Of a stretch of DNA of 36,049 nt, positions 7,603 through 30,357 are shown piece by piece. Position 1 is the stretch's first letter, and every line of letters starts with the position of its first letter. The notes under the pieces were generated by a model. It was not told the DNA's origin. It did no database searches and saw only the letters and a list, made by a program, of their open reading frames with translations. The stretch comes from Oscillospiraceae bacterium (GTDB taxonomy: Bacteria; Bacillota; Clostridia; Oscillospirales; Ruminococcaceae): assembly GCA_009777445.1 (NCBI GenBank), contig WRLV01000015.1:1-36049 (forward strand), written 5' to 3'. Both the position numbers and the translations under genes were made by a program.

Positions 7603-8493
7603 TTACAAAGATATAATAAAATTAACTACTCCGAAGGTGAACATAATCGGAATAAAAAGCGCGTCTTTTTCGTATTTAACTGTGTCATTGCTGACGTATT
7701 TTTGAGGGGTTAAATCTAACTCAATCCCCGAACGATTTGAGAGGTTAACAACGAACAGCCCGTTGCTGAGATTGAGAAATTCGCCCACGGCGGCATCGGT
7801 AAAATCGTCAACTTCTGTGAGTTCTTCTTTAGCATAGCGTGAGGCAAAAATCTTGTAGGCATCGTCATCAGCTTCGATTCCGGTTTGATAGTTCATGACA
7901 CCTGATATGTCTTGAAATGCCATGTGATTTACCTTAACCGTTGAAACAACCTTTGCCGGCAACGGCAAAAAGTCATCACCCACGAAGCGAATGAGATTTT
8001 TAAATACGAGGTCTAAGTAATAAATATAAATGTCTTCTGATTCTTTATTGCCTAAATCGTAAAAATCAATGGTAATTCTCGCGAGAACATTGTCAACATC
8101 ATTCTTGATATCTTCTTCTGAGTATTCAGAAAGGGCGTGTGCGGCTTTATAATCTTTGAGAGCCTTCTCAAATTGCGCATTTGTAAGCGCACCGTTGTTA
8201 ACCAACGCCTGTCCTAAAACAAGATAGTCGGTTGGTTGTGAAGACAGCAGTCGTTCAACGTCCTGTGATTTCAAAAACCCCATATCAACGGCAAGGTCGC
8301 CTATTCTTTTATCAGAGGTAGCTTGAGCTTGATGAACCTGCTCAACCTGTTCAGCTGTCATCAAGCCGGCGTTTATCGCAAGCACACCGAGCCTTGTTTT
8401 AGTGTTTTTCTTATCCTCAAGCGCGGTTTTGAGGGTTTCTCCCGATACAATCTTTTGATTTAAAAGATAACTCCCGAAAAATTGCGTAAACAT
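7603..8493 (-). CDS. CheX/CheC-like phosphatase domain with MshEN-like repeats
   Basis: 296 residues, cytoplasmic. The first ~120 residues hold two related ~55-residue helical units (LLNQKIVSGETLKTAL..., GQALVNNGALTNAQFEKAL) like the MshEN/T2SS-E N-terminal fold, which in some proteins binds c-di-GMP. The C-terminal half resembles CheX: FTDAAVGEFLNLSNGLF carries E238 and N241, the ExxN pair that CheC/CheX proteins use to remove phosphate from CheY. The gene starts 4 bp after the CheY-like gene ends, with AAAGGGG before ATG 8493, so the two are surely cotranscribed. I infer a phosphatase-receiver pair. No CheA or motility genes are in the window. Confidence 0.72.
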   Translation of the reverse strand: MFTQFFGSYLLNQKIVSGETLKTALEDKKNTKTRLGVLAINAGLMTAEQVEQVHQAQATSDKRIGDLAVDMGFLKSQDVERLLSSQPTDYLVLGQALVNNGALTNAQFEKALKDYKAAHALSEYSEEDIKNDVDNVLARITIDFYDLGNKESEDIYIYYLDLVFKNLIRFVGDDFLPLPAKVVSTVKVNHMAFQDISGVMNYQTGIEADDDAYKIFASRYAKEELTEVDDFTDAAVGEFLNLSNGLFVVNLSNRSGIELDLTPQKYVSNDTVKYEKDALFIPIMFTFGVVNFIISL

Positions 8494-8497
8494 AATC

Positions 8498-8872
8498 TCA
8501 CCCCTTTGCTATTGATTCAAGAATTTTAAGAACTTGTTCGTTTTCGATTGGTTTTTGTATAAACTCAAAGGCCCCGGCACTTATCGCTTCGGCAAGATTG
8601 CTCTGTGTTCCCACCGATGAGACCATGACAACTTTAGCGTTCTTGTCGAATTCCATAATTTCACCAAGAGCCTGAACACCCGTTTTTTTAGGCATAACAA
8701 TATCCATAAGCACTAAGCTCGGCGTGTGTTCTTTGTACTTATCCACTGCCTCTTGTCCATCGGCGGCATTGTGCACCGCTTTAATTTTAAGAGAGAGCAG
8801 ATAATCCCTTAATTTTTTTCTCACAAAAAGTGAGTCATCGCAAATAAGCACAGACATGTCTTCAAACTGCAT
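8498..8872 (-). CDS. CheY-like single-domain response regulator
   Basis: 124 residues, receiver domain only. The acidic pair is D12/D13 (CDDS), the phospho-acceptor is D57 (LMDIVMP), the switch serine is S85 (VMVSS) and the lysine is K107 (IQKP). All key residues are present. ATG 8872 follows GGAGG with good spacing. The downstream neighbour is a CheX-like protein, the natural phosphatase for such a receiver. The kinase must lie elsewhere. The target could be a flagellar switch or another output. Confidence 0.88.
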   Translation of the reverse strand: MQFEDMSVLICDDSLFVRKKLRDYLLSLKIKAVHNAADGQEAVDKYKEHTPSLVLMDIVMPKKTGVQALGEIMEFDKNAKVVMVSSVGTQSNLAEAISAGAFEFIQKPIENEQVLKILESIAKG

Positions 8873-10131: not shown

Positions 10132-11229
10132 CTACGGATTAATTGCCAACTCAAGTTTCGTTGAATATTCCGCAATCTTATGTGATACCAACCCGCGAAC
10201 CCAATCTTCAGCGGATTTTGTCTTGCCATCAAGATGCATAAACAAGAAACTCGGAAAGTGAGTTCGTTTCGCCATTTCAGCGTAGTCTTTGCGGGTTTCG
10301 TAGGTAGCACCATGAACTTTTTCTTGCAAAATTTTGTCAAGGTATGTAATTAGATGATTGATACGCTGCTTGGTTGCAGATATAATTTCGCTGTATTCGG
10401 GAAAATACGTGAGAAATTCTGCGGTTTCGTTGGACATAACAAGCTCTACAACTCGCGTTTCGTTTATTCCAGATATGAGCCGTGAAGCCGCTACATATGC
10501 AGGGCTCTTGACTTTAATACGGCGATATTGCGCATCTTTGACAACATAACCTTCTTCGCTGTATTTCAGCTTTTTAGCCATTTCGATTAAGTCGTCAAGA
10601 CTACTGCAAGAATATGTTTTTGGTTTCGGAATGCCGATGTCAGCTTCGAGTTCTTGCGAATTCGATATATCACGAGTGCCGATGTGGTATAGTCCGGTTT
10701 CGCCGTACGGCGTAACAATCCTGTTATATGGCGAAACAAGCTCAAACATATAGATATATTGCGGATTTAGCCTGCTTGTGTCTAAATTCACGTTAGTTGC
10801 GGCGATATCAAACAGTACACGAAAATTCGGGTAATCGGCGTTGATTGTAACAAGTGCCCTTAATTCGGCATCACGAGCATCGATAGTACCATTGGTAGAC
10901 ACTCGCCATTCGTTGTCGTAATGCCAAAGTTTAATTAGGCTACCGTCAAGCTTTTCCTCAACAACAGCAGTATTCCAGTCGATTTTATCGGCGTAGCTTT
11001 CGCCATAATTTCCAAATTTGTAAAACGGAATACAGACAGGATTAAAATCGCTGTCAAGAATAAGACCCCGACATTCCCTAACAATTTCTTGATTAAAATC
11101 AGAATCAATTTGCGAATACTTCAACAGGATAAAACCATGTTCTTCTTTGATTTTGATATTATATGGGTCGGTTGACAGAATGTCTCGCCAGTTGGGGTGT
11201 TGCTTGATGAGGTGGATTACTTTGAGCAT
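10132..11229 (-). CDS. T4 Rnl1-like RNA ligase
   Basis: 365 residues. Nucleotidyltransferase motif I is EKLDGSL with the adenylated lysine at K93. RECRGLILD (51-59) matches the conserved N-terminal motif of Rnl1-type ligases. FELVSPYNRIV is the motif IIIa region, EGYVVKD (226-232) motif IV and RIKVKSPAYV (237-246) motif V. A helical C-terminal part of ~115 residues follows, as in T4 Rnl1. Such enzymes seal 5'-phosphate to 3'-OH RNA ends, for example broken tRNA anticodon loops. ATG 11229 follows AAAGG by 9 nt. The gene stands alone, without kinase-phosphatase or nuclease partners, behind a consensus promoter. A bacterial chromosomal copy of a phage-type ligase suggests transfer. Confidence 0.85.
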   Translation of the reverse strand: MLKVIHLIKQHPNWRDILSTDPYNIKIKEEHGFILLKYSQIDSDFNQEIVRECRGLILDSDFNPVCIPFYKFGNYGESYADKIDWNTAVVEEKLDGSLIKLWHYDNEWRVSTNGTIDARDAELRALVTINADYPNFRVLFDIAATNVNLDTSRLNPQYIYMFELVSPYNRIVTPYGETGLYHIGTRDISNSQELEADIGIPKPKTYSCSSLDDLIEMAKKLKYSEEGYVVKDAQYRRIKVKSPAYVAASRLISGINETRVVELVMSNETAEFLTYFPEYSEIISATKQRINHLITYLDKILQEKVHGATYETRKDYAEMAKRTHFPSFLFMHLDGKTKSAEDWVRGLVSHKIAEYSTKLELAINP

Positions 11230-11260
11230 TGGTTTGAACCTTTCTTTAGCTATCGGTCTC

Positions 11261-11289
11261 ATTGTAACATATCAAATTCCTTTTGTCAA
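11261..11289 (-). promoter_or_regulatory. Sigma-A promoter of the RNA ligase gene
   Basis: On the minus strand: TTGACA (11284-11289), a 17-nt spacer and TACAAT (11261-11266). The ligase ATG is about 32 nt downstream of the -10. Consensus -35 with optimal spacing suggests steady expression. Confidence 0.8.
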
Positions 11290-11427: not shown

Positions 11428-11540
11428 CACCGCCCAACACAAAAGTGCCGGGCGGTGTAGCTGTTATAATTTCAAATCCGTCCGCGCAAGCGGACACCAA
11501 AATTGTCAATTGTCAATTGTACATTGTCAATTGTCCGTCA
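11428..11540. repeat. Composite repeat B: two hairpins plus heptamer array
   Basis: First hairpin CACCGCCC / GGGCGGTG (11428-11457, loop 14 nt). Then comes the 23-nt block shared with repeat A, the second palindrome GTCCGCGCAAGCGGAC (11480-11495) and CAATTGT-type heptamers to 11540. The spo0A stop codon (11538-11540) lies in TTGACGG, exactly as the LytTR stop does in repeat A. Confidence 0.8.
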
Positions 11541-12326
11541 AAGCGTATAACTTTTCCCTTTAAGCTGCAGTCTTATTTTGTCTGAAATAAGTGCTATAAA
11601 TTCTGAGTTTGTTGGTTTTCCTCTGCCGGTGTGAATGGTGTAGCCGAAAAAGCTGTTTAGGGTTTCGATGTCGCCCCTGTCCCAGGCAATTTCAATTGCG
11701 TGGCGAATGGCGCGCTCTACCCTTGACGATGTTGTGGAATATTTTTGCGCCACTTGCGGATATAAAAGTTTGGTTATGCTGTTCATCATTTCGACATCGT
11801 CAACGCACAGAATAATCGCACTTCTCAGATAATGATAGCCTTTGATATGCGCCGGTATTCCGATTTGATGAATTATGTCGGTGACGACAAACTCTAAATC
11901 ATCGGGTGGGGTTTGGTGAACATTGTATGTCACGTTTTGAAGGCTTGTCCCGGCGGCTAAGATGTTTTCAACACGTTGCGCCAAAACGCTCGGCTCGAAG
12001 GGCTTAACCATGTAATATTTCGCCCCCGCGCTCATAATCTCGCTTTCAAGGTGAGGAGAGTCGTAGTTTGAAATTACCACCACGCTCGGCTTAGGCGTTT
12101 TTGACGTTTTAGACAACTCATTAAGTATAGAAACCGCGTCATATTCCGGCATCTTCGCCTCGATAATCAATACATCCGGCATATCGTTCAGCACCGAATC
12201 TAATATGATTTTGCCGTGTTTTGGTCGTGTAATCGCATACATTCCCTTCGCCTTGAAAACACCTGCCCATGCTAATCCCTGGTCGACAGTATCATCGCCA
12301 ATAAGCACTTTTGTCTTTTGTATCAT
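11538..12326 (-). CDS. spo0A: Spo0A, with glutamate at the phospho-acceptor site
   Basis: 262 residues. The C-terminal DNA-binding domain is near-canonical: IGIPAHIKGYHYLR, YSTTSSRVERAIRHAIEIAW and KPTNSEFIALISDK match B. subtilis Spo0A closely. The receiver keeps the acidic pair D11/D12 (IGDD), a serine in VVVISN and K in VKPF. The site that is D56 in B. subtilis (PDVLVLD) is E56 here (PDVLIIE, codon GAG at 12159-12161), so ordinary aspartyl phosphorylation is not possible. ATG 12326 follows AGGAGG. A cluster of 0A boxes lies upstream, consistent with autoregulation. Family identity is certain; loss of phosphorelay control is inferred. Confidence 0.93.
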   Translation of the reverse strand: MIQKTKVLIGDDTVDQGLAWAGVFKAKGMYAITRPKHGKIILDSVLNDMPDVLIIEAKMPEYDAVSILNELSKTSKTPKPSVVVISNYDSPHLESEIMSAGAKYYMVKPFEPSVLAQRVENILAAGTSLQNVTYNVHQTPPDDLEFVVTDIIHQIGIPAHIKGYHYLRSAIILCVDDVEMMNSITKLLYPQVAQKYSTTSSRVERAIRHAIEIAWDRGDIETLNSFFGYTIHTGRGKPTNSEFIALISDKIRLQLKGKSYTL

Positions 12327-12417: not shown

Positions 12418-12493
12418 TGTCGATTTTTGTTTTTTTCGACAAAATTCGACAAATCAAAGACAAAAAAACCTGCCTTTCCCGATTTATGTCGAC
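12418..12493. promoter_or_regulatory. Cluster of Spo0A-binding (0A) boxes
   Basis: TTCGACA, the complement of the 0A box TGTCGAA, occurs twice at 12435-12441 and 12445-12451, exactly 10 bp apart, as in known tandem 0A sites. One-mismatch sites TGTCGAT (12418-12424) and TGTCGAC (12487-12493) flank them. The cluster lies upstream of both divergent promoters (spo0A and the phosphatase operon). Confidence 0.75.
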
Positions 12494-12602: not shown

Positions 12603-13469
12603 ATGATTACAAAAAGCGAGCAAAATCAGCAAAAATCTCAAGTTGCCAACGAAGCAGAAAGTTCTGAGGCTCTTTTAAACGCTAAAATTGAAATTAAAAA
12701 TCAACACAGAATTTTAACCGAAAACCTTAAATACGCGGCGAAAATACAAAGGATGCTCATTCCGCCCGAAAGTGTCTTTGAGGAGGCGTTTTCGGATTAT
12801 TCGATTTTTTGGAAACCGCGCGACATACTCGGGGGCGATATTTATTGGATTAAACGCTTTAATGGGGGGACTGTCTTGTGCGTGTGCGACTGTGTCGGTC
12901 ATGGCACTGCCGGCGCATTGCTGACTATGGTTGTTGTTTCGTTGCTTGATGCTATGGTTACACCTCAAAATTATAGAGACACTGCTCAAATTCTTTATGA
13001 GTTAGACAAAAAGTTTTTTGAAGTGTTTCGCTTTGACAACGAAGATGGGAAAAAGAACATAGAAGAGGGTTGCACTCTTGCGGTTTTATTCATCGCAAAC
13101 AACGGCACTGTCAAGGTGTCGTCGGGAGGTATTCACGTTTTTGTCTGCAACGGCAGAGATGCGATTCGGGTGAGCGGTCAAAGAATATATGTAGGCGAGG
13201 GCAAAGTAAAACATAAAGACGATGTTAATACCGTTGTCATTCCCAGTGAACCCGACAATAAGTTTTACATTGCGACAGACGGTTTATATGAGCAAATCGG
13301 CGATAAGTCGCGCTTGCCTTTCGGCTATGCGCGAATGAAAGAGCTGATTCTTCAACACCACAATAAAAGACATTCCGAAATAAGCGAAGAGATTAAAAAC
13401 GCCTTTAAAGAGCACAAAGGCAACCAACCGCAAAGAGATGACCTGCAGCTAATCACTTTCAATATGTGA
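12603..13469 (+). CDS. SpoIIE/RsbU-type PP2C serine phosphatase
   Basis: 288 residues, soluble. A predicted coiled coil spans about 20-50 (LLNAKIEIKNQHRILTENLKYAAKIQR). The PP2C_SpoIIE domain then carries metal-binding D79 in GGDIYW, D96 in CDCVGHGTAGALL, and near the end TDGLYEQ and RDDLQLI. All key acids are present. There is no membrane or sensor domain, so input comes through a partner or through the coiled coil. From family knowledge these proteins dephosphorylate anti-anti-sigma factors. Its end overlaps or abuts the next gene. The 0A boxes upstream suggest Spo0A control. Confidence 0.83.
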   Translation: MITKSEQNQQKSQVANEAESSEALLNAKIEIKNQHRILTENLKYAAKIQRMLIPPESVFEEAFSDYSIFWKPRDILGGDIYWIKRFNGGTVLCVCDCVGHGTAGALLTMVVVSLLDAMVTPQNYRDTAQILYELDKKFFEVFRFDNEDGKKNIEEGCTLAVLFIANNGTVKVSSGGIHVFVCNGRDAIRVSGQRIYVGEGKVKHKDDVNTVVIPSEPDNKFYIATDGLYEQIGDKSRLPFGYARMKELILQHHNKRHSEISEEIKNAFKEHKGNQPQRDDLQLITFNM

Positions 13470-27405: not shown

Positions 27406-27488
27406 GGGACGGGCAAGCCCGTCCCCTACAATCCGTTGCCGCAAGGCGACTCCACAACTGTCAACTCTCAATTGTCAACTCTCAACTG
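27406..27488. repeat. Composite repeat C: two hairpins plus heptamer array
   Basis: First hairpin GGGACGGGC-aa-GCCCGTCCC (27406-27425). The second palindrome, GTTGCCGCAAGGCGAC (27435-27450), differs from that of repeat A by one base. CAACTGT/CAACTCT/CAATTGT heptamers follow to 27488. The protease gene's last codons and its TGA (27475-27477) lie inside the array. Confidence 0.8.
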
Positions 27489-30357
27489 AAATAGGTATCG
27501 GCTCAAAACCAACAGTTTTCGTTACAGTCCTCTTCATATAAGTCAAATCGGCTATATTTACCTTGCCGTCGTTGTTAGCATCCGCGCTTTTTAGCCACAG
27601 TGGTTCGGTGATGGCTTTTTTGCCTGTGATATGCTCTCTGAGCAGTGTCAAATCTTCTGCATCAACCACGTTATCTTGGTTAATGTCGCCGTAAAACATT
27701 TGGTCGGGCTGTGGTGACTCGCCGTTTTTGAGTGAAAAGAACGCATCCCAAATCCCGAACGAGGGGACGTTGTTAAGGGTGATGTTGTGATAAACCTGAT
27801 TGTCGGCTAAGTCAACAAATGAGTTTCTACTCACGAAAATGCTGTAAGCCCTTATTTCATCGCCTACTATATCCACAGGCTCACCGCCGCCGGGGATTAT
27901 GGTTTGCTTTTGCTCAAATATGGCGGGGTTTGTTGCAAAGTCTTTGAGTGAAATGCCGGTTGGTTCTTTAAATTCTTCAAAGGGGATTGTCACAGTGTTC
28001 ATGTTAACTATGCCGGAGTTTGCCGGTATGGTGTATTCAAAGAGAACTGCCACATTGGGGTCATAAGCATTGCTTCTTCTAAACTCATCGCCGTCTCTCG
28101 GGAATGCCGCAATCGTAATCACTCCACCTTGTCTTGCGGTAATCAGCTCGCTGAATTCAAGGGTGAGGTTGGCTTTCATGTCTAAATTGTCCCCGCCTTT
28201 TTTCACAGTGTAATGAGGTTCAACAAAGTCTGTTACAGAAACATTGAGTTCAAACGAACGGTCTTTAGAGTAGTCGCCCTTGCTGACACTTGCGGTGAAG
28301 TATCCGCTTGTGTTCTTTGTTAAGGCTTTAAATTCATCGTTTATAACGACACCATTGTTGTTGATTTGCGGGTTATCTGATTTCCAGGTTATAACCGTGT
28401 CGTTAGCGGCTGACTCGGGCAGTGCTAAATTATGGGTGACAGCATTTGGCAACGCGTTATTCCCACGAAATACATCAAATGATAAAGTGCTTATAACTTG
28501 CTCAACGGCTTCTTGGTCGCTTATTGGGTCTTTGAACACTTCTAAGTCGAAGACCACTTCTTTTTCTGCCGCGCCTCTTGTTACTTTTGCGGTGAGTTTA
28601 ACCTCTCCTCCTATTTCTCTGCTTACTCTACCATCGTTTGCTATAACGGCGGTATCGCTTGACTGCCAGCTAACCATAGTCCCGTAGTCGGCATTCAACG
28701 GAAGGTAGAGGTCTTCCATTCCTCCCCTTTGTGCAAAGTTTTGGGCGCGAATTGTGTTCCAGTCTAATTTAGCGGCGGCGGCCTCAACCGCGCGAGTGTC
28801 AGATGTGGTTACCGCTTTTATATTGAACGATGTCGGCGGAACGATAACCAGTTCTCCATCATCATTATAATAGTTCTCATTATAATCATACCATGACTCC
28901 GGTCCACCCGTGTCAGAGAAGAAGCACTCGCCCAATTCAGCAGTGGATTCTGCATATTCCGGAACATAAGTTTCAACAGGAATTGTGGCAAATCTATGAA
29001 CACCCACATTTGTATATTTCACAATGATAGCGAATTTCGGGCCTTTCAGAACTGCCGAATTAACCTGAACAGTGTACCACCCGGGTAAATCTTCGGTTAT
29101 ATTGCTTTTTAATGGAATGGCTTTGCTCATATCTAAAGAGCCTATATTATTGAATTCGTCTAAAAGATAAACATCAGCCCTACCCGAAAACATATACAGT
29201 TTAATCGCGCTTAATCTTTCGTCAGTAGCAGTTAAATCAAAAACACTTGCCCCGAAAATTTCAGGAGTAAATAAGTGGTCTGAAAATCCGGTGTTTCCTA
29301 ATGGGTCGTGTTCATAGATTTTCTCACTTTGGTCATATGACTTAACGCCGTCAACCACCCACGTGTCGAGAGGGAAGCGTGTGTCTTCATATGAAATCCA
29401 AAATAAGCCATCGTTACCCCAGTCGCTACCCCAACTGTTTTTCACCAACCACGCGCCGTTGGCGGTGGGTTGAATGTTAAAGTTAGCGCGCGAATAATTA
29501 TTATCCCACCCGACTATTGTCACGGCATGGTTAGGGGTGTTTTCTGCTCTGTTATAATAATATGACGAGTGAACGGCGTTATAAAATTCAGTGCGGTCGA
29601 TTCCGGCTTCGGCTGTGGTGTTTCCGTGCCAATACATTGACGCGCCAACCGCGCCATGGGCAATAACCGCGTCTTTAATTCTGTTAGAATCGTTTTTATT
29701 TTCATCGCCGCCTAAAAACTTGATGCTTTCAATGCTGTAGCTTTTTGTTTTATCGCGTGTTTCGTTGAATGAACGCGCCGTGAGTCGTCTGTTTATAAAG
29801 GAAGAATATCTATCCTGCGACTCGTCAACCGTTCCGCCGAAGTTACCCCTCATGAAATATGCCGCCGCCTGTGAACGGTTTCCACCGCCATCGGGTTCTT
29901 TCCTGTCGCCCAAAAAGCCGTTTGGGTTTACATTGGGGCTTAACGCCGCCCGTGAAGTGGCATGAGCAATATGTAATTCAGATAAGTCCGGATTAGCAAC
30001 AACTGAATTTTTAAGAATGTTCGACTCAACCACAGAAGTCGCCGCGAAAGTCCAGCAAACGCCGTTTAAGCCTTGGTTTTGCGCTTCGGTGATGTATGGG
30101 CTTGTGTAAGACGGCAAACTAACCACAGTGTCAAACCCATAAAGGGCAGGGTAGTCAAAAGAAATCGGCTCTGACACCAAACCACCGCTGACAACAACGC
30201 TTTGGGGTTTCGGGGCAGGGCTACGAGTTCCCGGACTACCTGAACCTTCAGCGACACTCTCAACGCTGTCGGCGGAAAACGCGCTTAATGACATTCCCCC
30301 CAACAACAAAGATAATGCAGGTAACATTAGAATTTTTGAAATAAGTTTCCTATTCAT
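27475..30357 (-). CDS. Exported papain-like (C1A) protease with dockerin
   Basis: 960 residues. Signal peptide 1-29. Cysteine-protease core: Q95, catalytic C101 (NGVCWTFAA), H277 (NHAVTIVGW) and N307 (LVKNSWGSDWG). A beta-rich lectin-like region (~345-510) follows, as in other bacterial C1A surface proteases. Two Ig-like modules of the SWQSSDTAVI / TWKSDNPQI type occupy ~525-710, then a domain to ~870. The end is a type I dockerin (~888-947): DINQDNVVDAEDLTLL and DANNDGKVNIADLTYM are the two calcium-binding repeats. It is thus a secreted protease built to dock on a cohesin. A cohesin-like protein lies two genes away. The last residues and stop fall in repeat C. Confidence 0.88.
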   Translation of the reverse strand: MNRKLISKILMLPALSLLLGGMSLSAFSADSVESVAEGSGSPGTRSPAPKPQSVVVSGGLVSEPISFDYPALYGFDTVVSLPSYTSPYITEAQNQGLNGVCWTFAATSVVESNILKNSVVANPDLSELHIAHATSRAALSPNVNPNGFLGDRKEPDGGGNRSQAAAYFMRGNFGGTVDESQDRYSSFINRRLTARSFNETRDKTKSYSIESIKFLGGDENKNDSNRIKDAVIAHGAVGASMYWHGNTTAEAGIDRTEFYNAVHSSYYYNRAENTPNHAVTIVGWDNNYSRANFNIQPTANGAWLVKNSWGSDWGNDGLFWISYEDTRFPLDTWVVDGVKSYDQSEKIYEHDPLGNTGFSDHLFTPEIFGASVFDLTATDERLSAIKLYMFSGRADVYLLDEFNNIGSLDMSKAIPLKSNITEDLPGWYTVQVNSAVLKGPKFAIIVKYTNVGVHRFATIPVETYVPEYAESTAELGECFFSDTGGPESWYDYNENYYNDDGELVIVPPTSFNIKAVTTSDTRAVEAAAAKLDWNTIRAQNFAQRGGMEDLYLPLNADYGTMVSWQSSDTAVIANDGRVSREIGGEVKLTAKVTRGAAEKEVVFDLEVFKDPISDQEAVEQVISTLSFDVFRGNNALPNAVTHNLALPESAANDTVITWKSDNPQINNNGVVINDEFKALTKNTSGYFTASVSKGDYSKDRSFELNVSVTDFVEPHYTVKKGGDNLDMKANLTLEFSELITARQGGVITIAAFPRDGDEFRRSNAYDPNVAVLFEYTIPANSGIVNMNTVTIPFEEFKEPTGISLKDFATNPAIFEQKQTIIPGGGEPVDIVGDEIRAYSIFVSRNSFVDLADNQVYHNITLNNVPSFGIWDAFFSLKNGESPQPDQMFYGDINQDNVVDAEDLTLLREHITGKKAITEPLWLKSADANNDGKVNIADLTYMKRTVTKTVGFEPIPISVES

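Follow-up and report, generated by a model that had tools for sequence, protein, structure and literature searches.

By the textbook, endospore formation is triggered by phosphorylated Spo0A. The locus described here raises the question of what drives a Spo0A that carries a glutamate at the position of the phospho-acceptor aspartate. It lies in a 36,049-nucleotide stretch of DNA from an Oscillospiraceae bacterium, which was analysed as a whole and is called the window below. The named near relatives of the source bacterium are MAGs from gut and rumen, most of which carry the label Oscillospiraceae, Ruminiclostridium or Eubacterium.

A Spo0A with glutamate at position 56

The spo0A gene is located at 11538–12326 on the reverse strand and encodes a protein of 262 residues, which combines a receiver domain (residues ~5–122; 11961–12314, computed from the ORF start) with a Spo0A_C DNA-binding domain (11574–11885). 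The product scores 259 bits against TIGR02875 (cut-off 200), 152.4 bits against Pfam Spo0A_C and 51.3 bits against Response_reg; by its sequence, it is a Spo0A orthologue. Its effector half matches the solved Spo0A effector domain 1fc3 with 163.9 bits and is near-canonical, as the original prediction had described it. The gene provides the single PF08769 (Spo0A_C) match of its genome (G000; 1.98 Mb in 91 contigs, 91.6% complete), and a search with this profile for a second, canonical Spo0A, which would have spoken against the prediction, found none in the 91.6% complete assembly.

Translation of 12144–12176 on the reverse strand gives DVLIIEAKMPE, which places Glu56 at the GAG codon 12159–12161. 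The segment PDVLIIE aligns with PDVLLLD of the solved Spo0A receiver 5wq0_D, gap-free nearby and unambiguously. The other pocket residues are retained, namely Asp11 (12294–12296), Asp12 (12291–12293), Ser86 (12069–12071) and Lys108 (12003–12005), all on the reverse strand. Hence, the protein has the two acidic residues, the Ser/Thr and the Lys of a phosphorylation-activated regulator and lacks the Asp at position 56; with a Response_reg match of 51.3 bits and Glu56, it is an ALR, meaning a receiver domain without the acceptor aspartate. A sequencing error at this codon, also considered at the outset, is very unlikely since Glu56 occurs in 50 distinct Spo0A rows, the window's included, encoded by GAG in 27 and by GAA in 23. 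The original observation of glutamate at the acceptor position in an otherwise retained pocket is thereby borne out.

Known regulators with a replaced acceptor, ChxR (Glu) and RitR (Asn), have output families that differ from that of Spo0A, and BldM and WhiI of Streptomyces belong to another lineage and carry another output domain. Passages of PMC4395418 describe ALRs such as ChxR and RitR as usually keeping the pocket lysine and an acidic residue, and passages of PMC4125116 describe development under the orphan, atypical response regulators BldM and WhiI; these features are shared with the present case. In contrast to ChxR and RitR, the window's protein is an orthologue of the master regulator of sporulation, and both of its acidic pocket residues are kept. 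A literature search, with most subscription papers outside its reach, found no report of a natural Spo0A without acceptor; the passages seen of PMC11536998, PMC7924749, PMC11115286, PMC5814915, PMC6136694 and PMC3533761 contain none on such a protein. In passages of PMC11536998, the presence of spo0A serves to mark MAGs as potential spore formers.

Position 56 and the receiver pocket among relatives

Spo0A rows were collected by protein similarity in named genomes (80 loci) and by HMM searches of 60 genomes of the order (own included; TIGR02875) and of 396 family genomes and, as a control, 243 class genomes (both PF08769). Of the 361 family and 200 class genomes with matches, only part of those scoring highly for the C-terminal domain was read (90 and 70 stretches). 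The rows left out are 6 of 151 matches below 110 bits, 7 and 4 duplicates, and one truncated control row. The search for the 80 named loci used patterns taken from the window protein, including EAKMPEYD, so that these loci are biased towards Glu56; their kinship to the window is not given.

Position 56 varies within the genus. Spo0A was obtained from 34 of 36 genus genomes, own included (the TIGR02875 search gave none over the cut-off in G017 and G024), and one row, from G004, ends before the receiver. The 33 genomes with a readable receiver (G261 being left out of the genus counts) divide into 17 with Glu56, 12 with Asp56 and 4 with a short deletion of the acceptor. Only G015 among the 17 has an additional Asp56 copy. 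The nearest relative, L052, has Glu56, and L053 and L054 have Asp56. Aspartate in all close relatives would have contradicted the original prediction; instead, glutamate is shared with relatives and recurs elsewhere in the order. As separate observations, G015 carries a Glu56 Spo0A and an Asp56/Lys108 Spo0A in one genome (loci L135 and L160), and G018 has, at locus L165, two Spo0A_C matches besides its main gene; their open frames, of 181 and 178 residues, could not accommodate both an intact receiver and an effector.

Across 224 distinct rows, position 56 is D in 153, E in 50, N in 8, S in 4, K in 1 and H in 1, with a gap in 7; glutamate is the commonest replacement, with 50 of 64 non-Asp letters. 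The lone K stems from the short L165 row, whose receiver is not intact. The 146 rows of the window's order comprise D 96, E 30, N 8, gap 6, S 4, K 1 and H 1, so that Asp is absent in 44 of 140 lettered rows; the 78 named rows, of kinship not given, comprise D 57, E 20 and one gap. Compared with this, the control from other orders of the class (68 rows) has Asp56 in 67/67 rows complete at this position, and two more rows from the control set that fall in the window's order both have Asp56. Glu56 is spread over several subclades of the window clade (31/55 rows) and is found in two other families of the order; outside the window clade, it also occurs in 12 family rows and in 5 named rows, four of which carry the label Ruminococcus. 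A complete canonical pocket, defined as acidic residues at 11 and 12, Asp56, Ser/Thr86 and Lys108, is found in 64/67 control, 2/28 genus, 32/86 family, 8/22 other-family and 40/77 named rows. Together with the counts at position 56, these figures mark Glu56 as one case of a wider erosion of the phosphorylation site in the window's order.

The state is recurrent. On a Spo0A tree built with the five pocket columns masked, D and E must have interchanged at least 22 times among 272 rows, and D must have been exchanged with any other state at least 33 times among 289 rows; a smaller tree gives 11 D/E changes among 122 rows; these counts are rough, coming from quickly built trees of Spo0A itself, of which the smaller version has 48 of 131 inner branches unsupported, and 4 of 138 rows of the first tree and 5 of 294 of the second were left out as too short.

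Glu56 receivers are clearly kept under purifying selection. Receiver dN/dS is 0 to 0.14 in the 12 Glu56 pairs with finite dS (4 of 16 are saturated) and 0.020 to 0.081 in 6 Asp56 pairs, with two Glu56 pairs (0.099 and 0.140) above the highest Asp56 pair (0.081); all 22 pairs were picked by hand, and many synonymous distances exceed 1, which makes omega rough. At equal DNA-binding identity, receiver likeness is 0.319 in the family and 0.267 in other families of the order, compared with 0.480 in the control; for window-clade Glu56 receivers, it is 0.449.

The window clade has further receiver residues of its own. Its 49 rows with Asp or Glu at 56 consist of 31 with Glu56 and Lys108, 15 with Asp56 and Arg108, and 3 with Asp56 and Lys108. 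All 49 have Gly10 (Ala in most control rows), Trp20 (12267–12269, reverse strand; mostly Leu in the control) and Arg34 (12225–12227, reverse strand; mostly Ile, Val or Thr in the control, with 4 Arg). Gly10, Trp20, Arg34, Lys58 and Ala64, all unlike the control majority, are invariant in the 31 Glu56 rows. Since Gly10, Trp20 and Arg34 hold likewise in 18/18 Asp56 rows, the receiver remodelling is a property of the clade and not of its Glu56 members alone. Compared with canonical Spo0A from Bacillus subtilis and Clostridioides difficile, the window's protein is alike in domain order, in a TIGR02875 score over the cut-off, in its DNA-binding half and in D11, D12, S86 and K108, and differs by Glu56 in place of Asp56 and by W20, R34, K58 and A64, which depart from the control majority.

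Lys108 accompanies Glu56 in 31/31 rows of the window clade and in 13/19 outside it. A compensating salt bridge, suggested by this charge-pair covariation, was rejected as a general rule, since independent pairs do not support it: 1.2 change in the same way, 0 in the opposite way and 5.8 show no difference, the respective values in the wider tree being 1.4, 1.8 and 8.8.

Sporulation genes, signalling components and 0A boxes

SpoIVA, SpoIIE and SpoIIIAE were all found in 14/17 Glu56, 4/4 deletion and 11/12 Asp56 genomes of the genus, where some calls rest on partial matches (e.g., SpoIVA in G007 and SpoIIE in G016) and the SpoIIE matches in the 60 genomes all fall below the NCBIfam cut-off. The Glu56 genome G010 yielded no match to any of the three, and SpoIIE was not found in G003. 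SpoIVA occurs in 17/19 Glu56 genomes behind the named loci, the nearest (L052) included, two of these loci (L059 and L062) seeming to repeat G015 and G010; the named Glu56 rows are all MAGs, known from their genes alone, with no spores observed. Sporulation genes are thus present without Asp56, even in genomes with a deleted acceptor, which speaks for phosphotransfer to residue 56 being dispensable in these lineages.

In the window's own genome (91.6% complete, 91 contigs), none of the three genes was found, and the SpoIIE model matched only a phosphatase domain, at 38.7 bits. The genome has a spoIIA-like locus and a sigma-G-like match, whose 403.6 bits fall short of the cut-off, as do the scores in all 60 genomes. 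The missing genes may reflect either partial loss or assembly gaps. The three being core genes of sporulation, Spo0A may have ceased to bring about spores in this particular organism.

Loss of phosphorelay genes had been suggested as a check on the glutamate. The own genome still has 21 HATPase_c matches, not all of them kinases. According to passages of PMC3533761, three studied clostridia have no clear orthologues of KinA–KinE, Spo0B or Spo0F, and their kinases act directly on Spo0A; hence, relay loss is a poor test of how Glu56 is to be read. A Spo0E-type phosphatase (PF09388) was found over the Pfam cut-off in 0/60 genomes of the order, own included, with 3 weak matches, and in 55/147 class genomes (58 at E ≤ 0.01). 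Loss of Spo0E, a Spo0A~P phosphatase family, was rejected as a companion of Glu56 since Asp56 relatives are without it too.

Two exact copies of TGTCGAA, the 0A-box core consensus, lie 10 bp apart on the reverse strand at 12435–12451, ~110 bp upstream of the spo0A start. They are two of 6 exact copies in the whole window, where 5.72 are expected, a number not above chance. Within 300 bp before spo0A, the 31 window-clade Glu56 rows contain 24 exact cores (20 rows with at least one), compared with 0.91 expected by simple shuffling and 2.88 at the whole-locus rate, and the 18 Asp56 rows contain 18 (13 rows), compared with 0.41 and 2.12. Because the cores exceed expectation in both groups, autoregulation of spo0A seems to be retained in both. 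Before two sporulation loci, the signal in Glu56 genomes is weak: 2 exact boxes at spoIIE (0.52 expected) and 5 at spoIIA (2.31 expected), with 14 compared with 8.23 before spoIIAA when one mismatch is allowed. Asp56 genomes have 1 at spoIIE (0.35 expected) and 1 at spoIIA (1.08 expected).

Across the 0A-box region from spo0A, a divergent gene at 12603–13469 (forward strand) encodes a PP2C-type phosphatase of 288 residues with a Pfam SpoIIE domain; in L052, the ORF list shows no such gene upstream of spo0A. Inspection by eye of the ORF lists of ten loci for a common spo0A neighbour found none common to all; flanking ORFs are common to L057 and L060, and two ORFs to L053 and L055.

Candidate control of an aspartate-less Spo0A

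For this Spo0A with its aspartate-less receiver, we consider it probable that activity has become independent of phosphotransfer to residue 56 and that output is set by amount and autoregulation. Herein, the receiver would be kept as a structural module or one controlled by a protein or ligand, and Glu56 would preserve an acidic group close to Lys108. Output would be set mainly by the amount of Spo0A, via an autoregulatory loop at the 0A boxes before spo0A, and this level control would be joined by some receiver input other than phosphate on residue 56. Against it stand the interchange of Asp56 and Glu56 within the genus, where some members may still be phosphorylated, the HATPase_c matches remaining in the own genome, the three marker genes not found there or in G010, the small number of 0A boxes before spoIIE and spoIIA in Glu56 genomes and the roughness of omega; phosphorylation elsewhere on Spo0A is also conceivable. 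Extended to the whole order, the proposal would be that Spo0A repeatedly left two-component control (Glu, Asn, Ser, deletion) with the sporulation genes staying, so that its level and a new receiver input, not kinases, decide entry; for this broader statement, we see the chances as evenly balanced. If the acceptor is often missing across an order, kinase-centred models would not carry over there, and the order offers natural variants for asking what receiver phosphorylation is for.

The original prediction held that Spo0A may be active without a phosphorelay and that control may have moved to its expression, and pointed to glutamate as a phosphomimic in several response regulators. The cores upstream of spo0A are consistent with the part on expression; the part on mimicry fares less well. 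It would have Glu56 hold the receiver as an active dimer, making Spo0A constitutively active and controlled by amount only, which we regard as doubtful, albeit a candidate of some weight. The predominance of glutamate among the replacements and the constant Lys108 of window-clade Glu56 rows (less regular outside the clade) would fit such a dimer, but the order also has Spo0A proteins with Asn, Ser or His at this position or with the acceptor deleted, and Asn, Ser and a deletion are not mimics. Green (1991) is reportedly the source cited for Asp-to-Glu alone being insufficient in Spo0A. Passages of PMC4395418 state that glutamate mimics phospho-aspartate in some regulators, but also that the exchange alone is often insufficient (CheY, PhoB and Spo0A being named) and that glutamate is the commonest ALR substitution generally (26%). 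A single base change turns an aspartate codon into one for glutamate.

Unlikely, too, is that a remodelled pocket has turned the receiver into a sensor, with a ligand or a partner protein replacing phosphate as the input. The five residues invariant in Glu56 rows of the clade, three of them shared with its Asp56 rows, are what such a pocket might look like, but they may be mere lineage markers, and no ligand or partner was found. Quite unlikely is relaxed constraint, by which lineages losing sporulation would carry a Spo0A that drifts or has another job. The marker genes not found in G000 and G010 and the reduced receiver likeness in the family and other families point this way, but most Glu56 genomes of the genus have all three markers, Glu56 receivers show low omega, the clade is uniform in having Trp20 and Arg34, and the window-clade Glu56 receivers lie little below the control in likeness. 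The preferred reading, a Spo0A governed by its level and by an input other than phosphate on residue 56, is the one we retain.

Three other loci of the window, on the reverse strand, were observed alongside. A T4 Rnl1-like RNA ligase (10132–11262; Pfam RNA_lig_T4_1, 40.8 bits; NCBIfam equivalog 44.8 bits, below the cut-off of 242) adjoins spo0A on its downstream side. A protein encoded at 7603–8872 carries a c-di-GMP-binding motif of the MshE type at its N terminus, has a C terminus that weakly resembles CheX, under the Pfam cut-off, and is adjoined by a CheY-like protein. The product of 27475–30357 is a papain-family protease, whose aBig_2 domains and dockerin suggest a cellulosome-type secreted enzyme.
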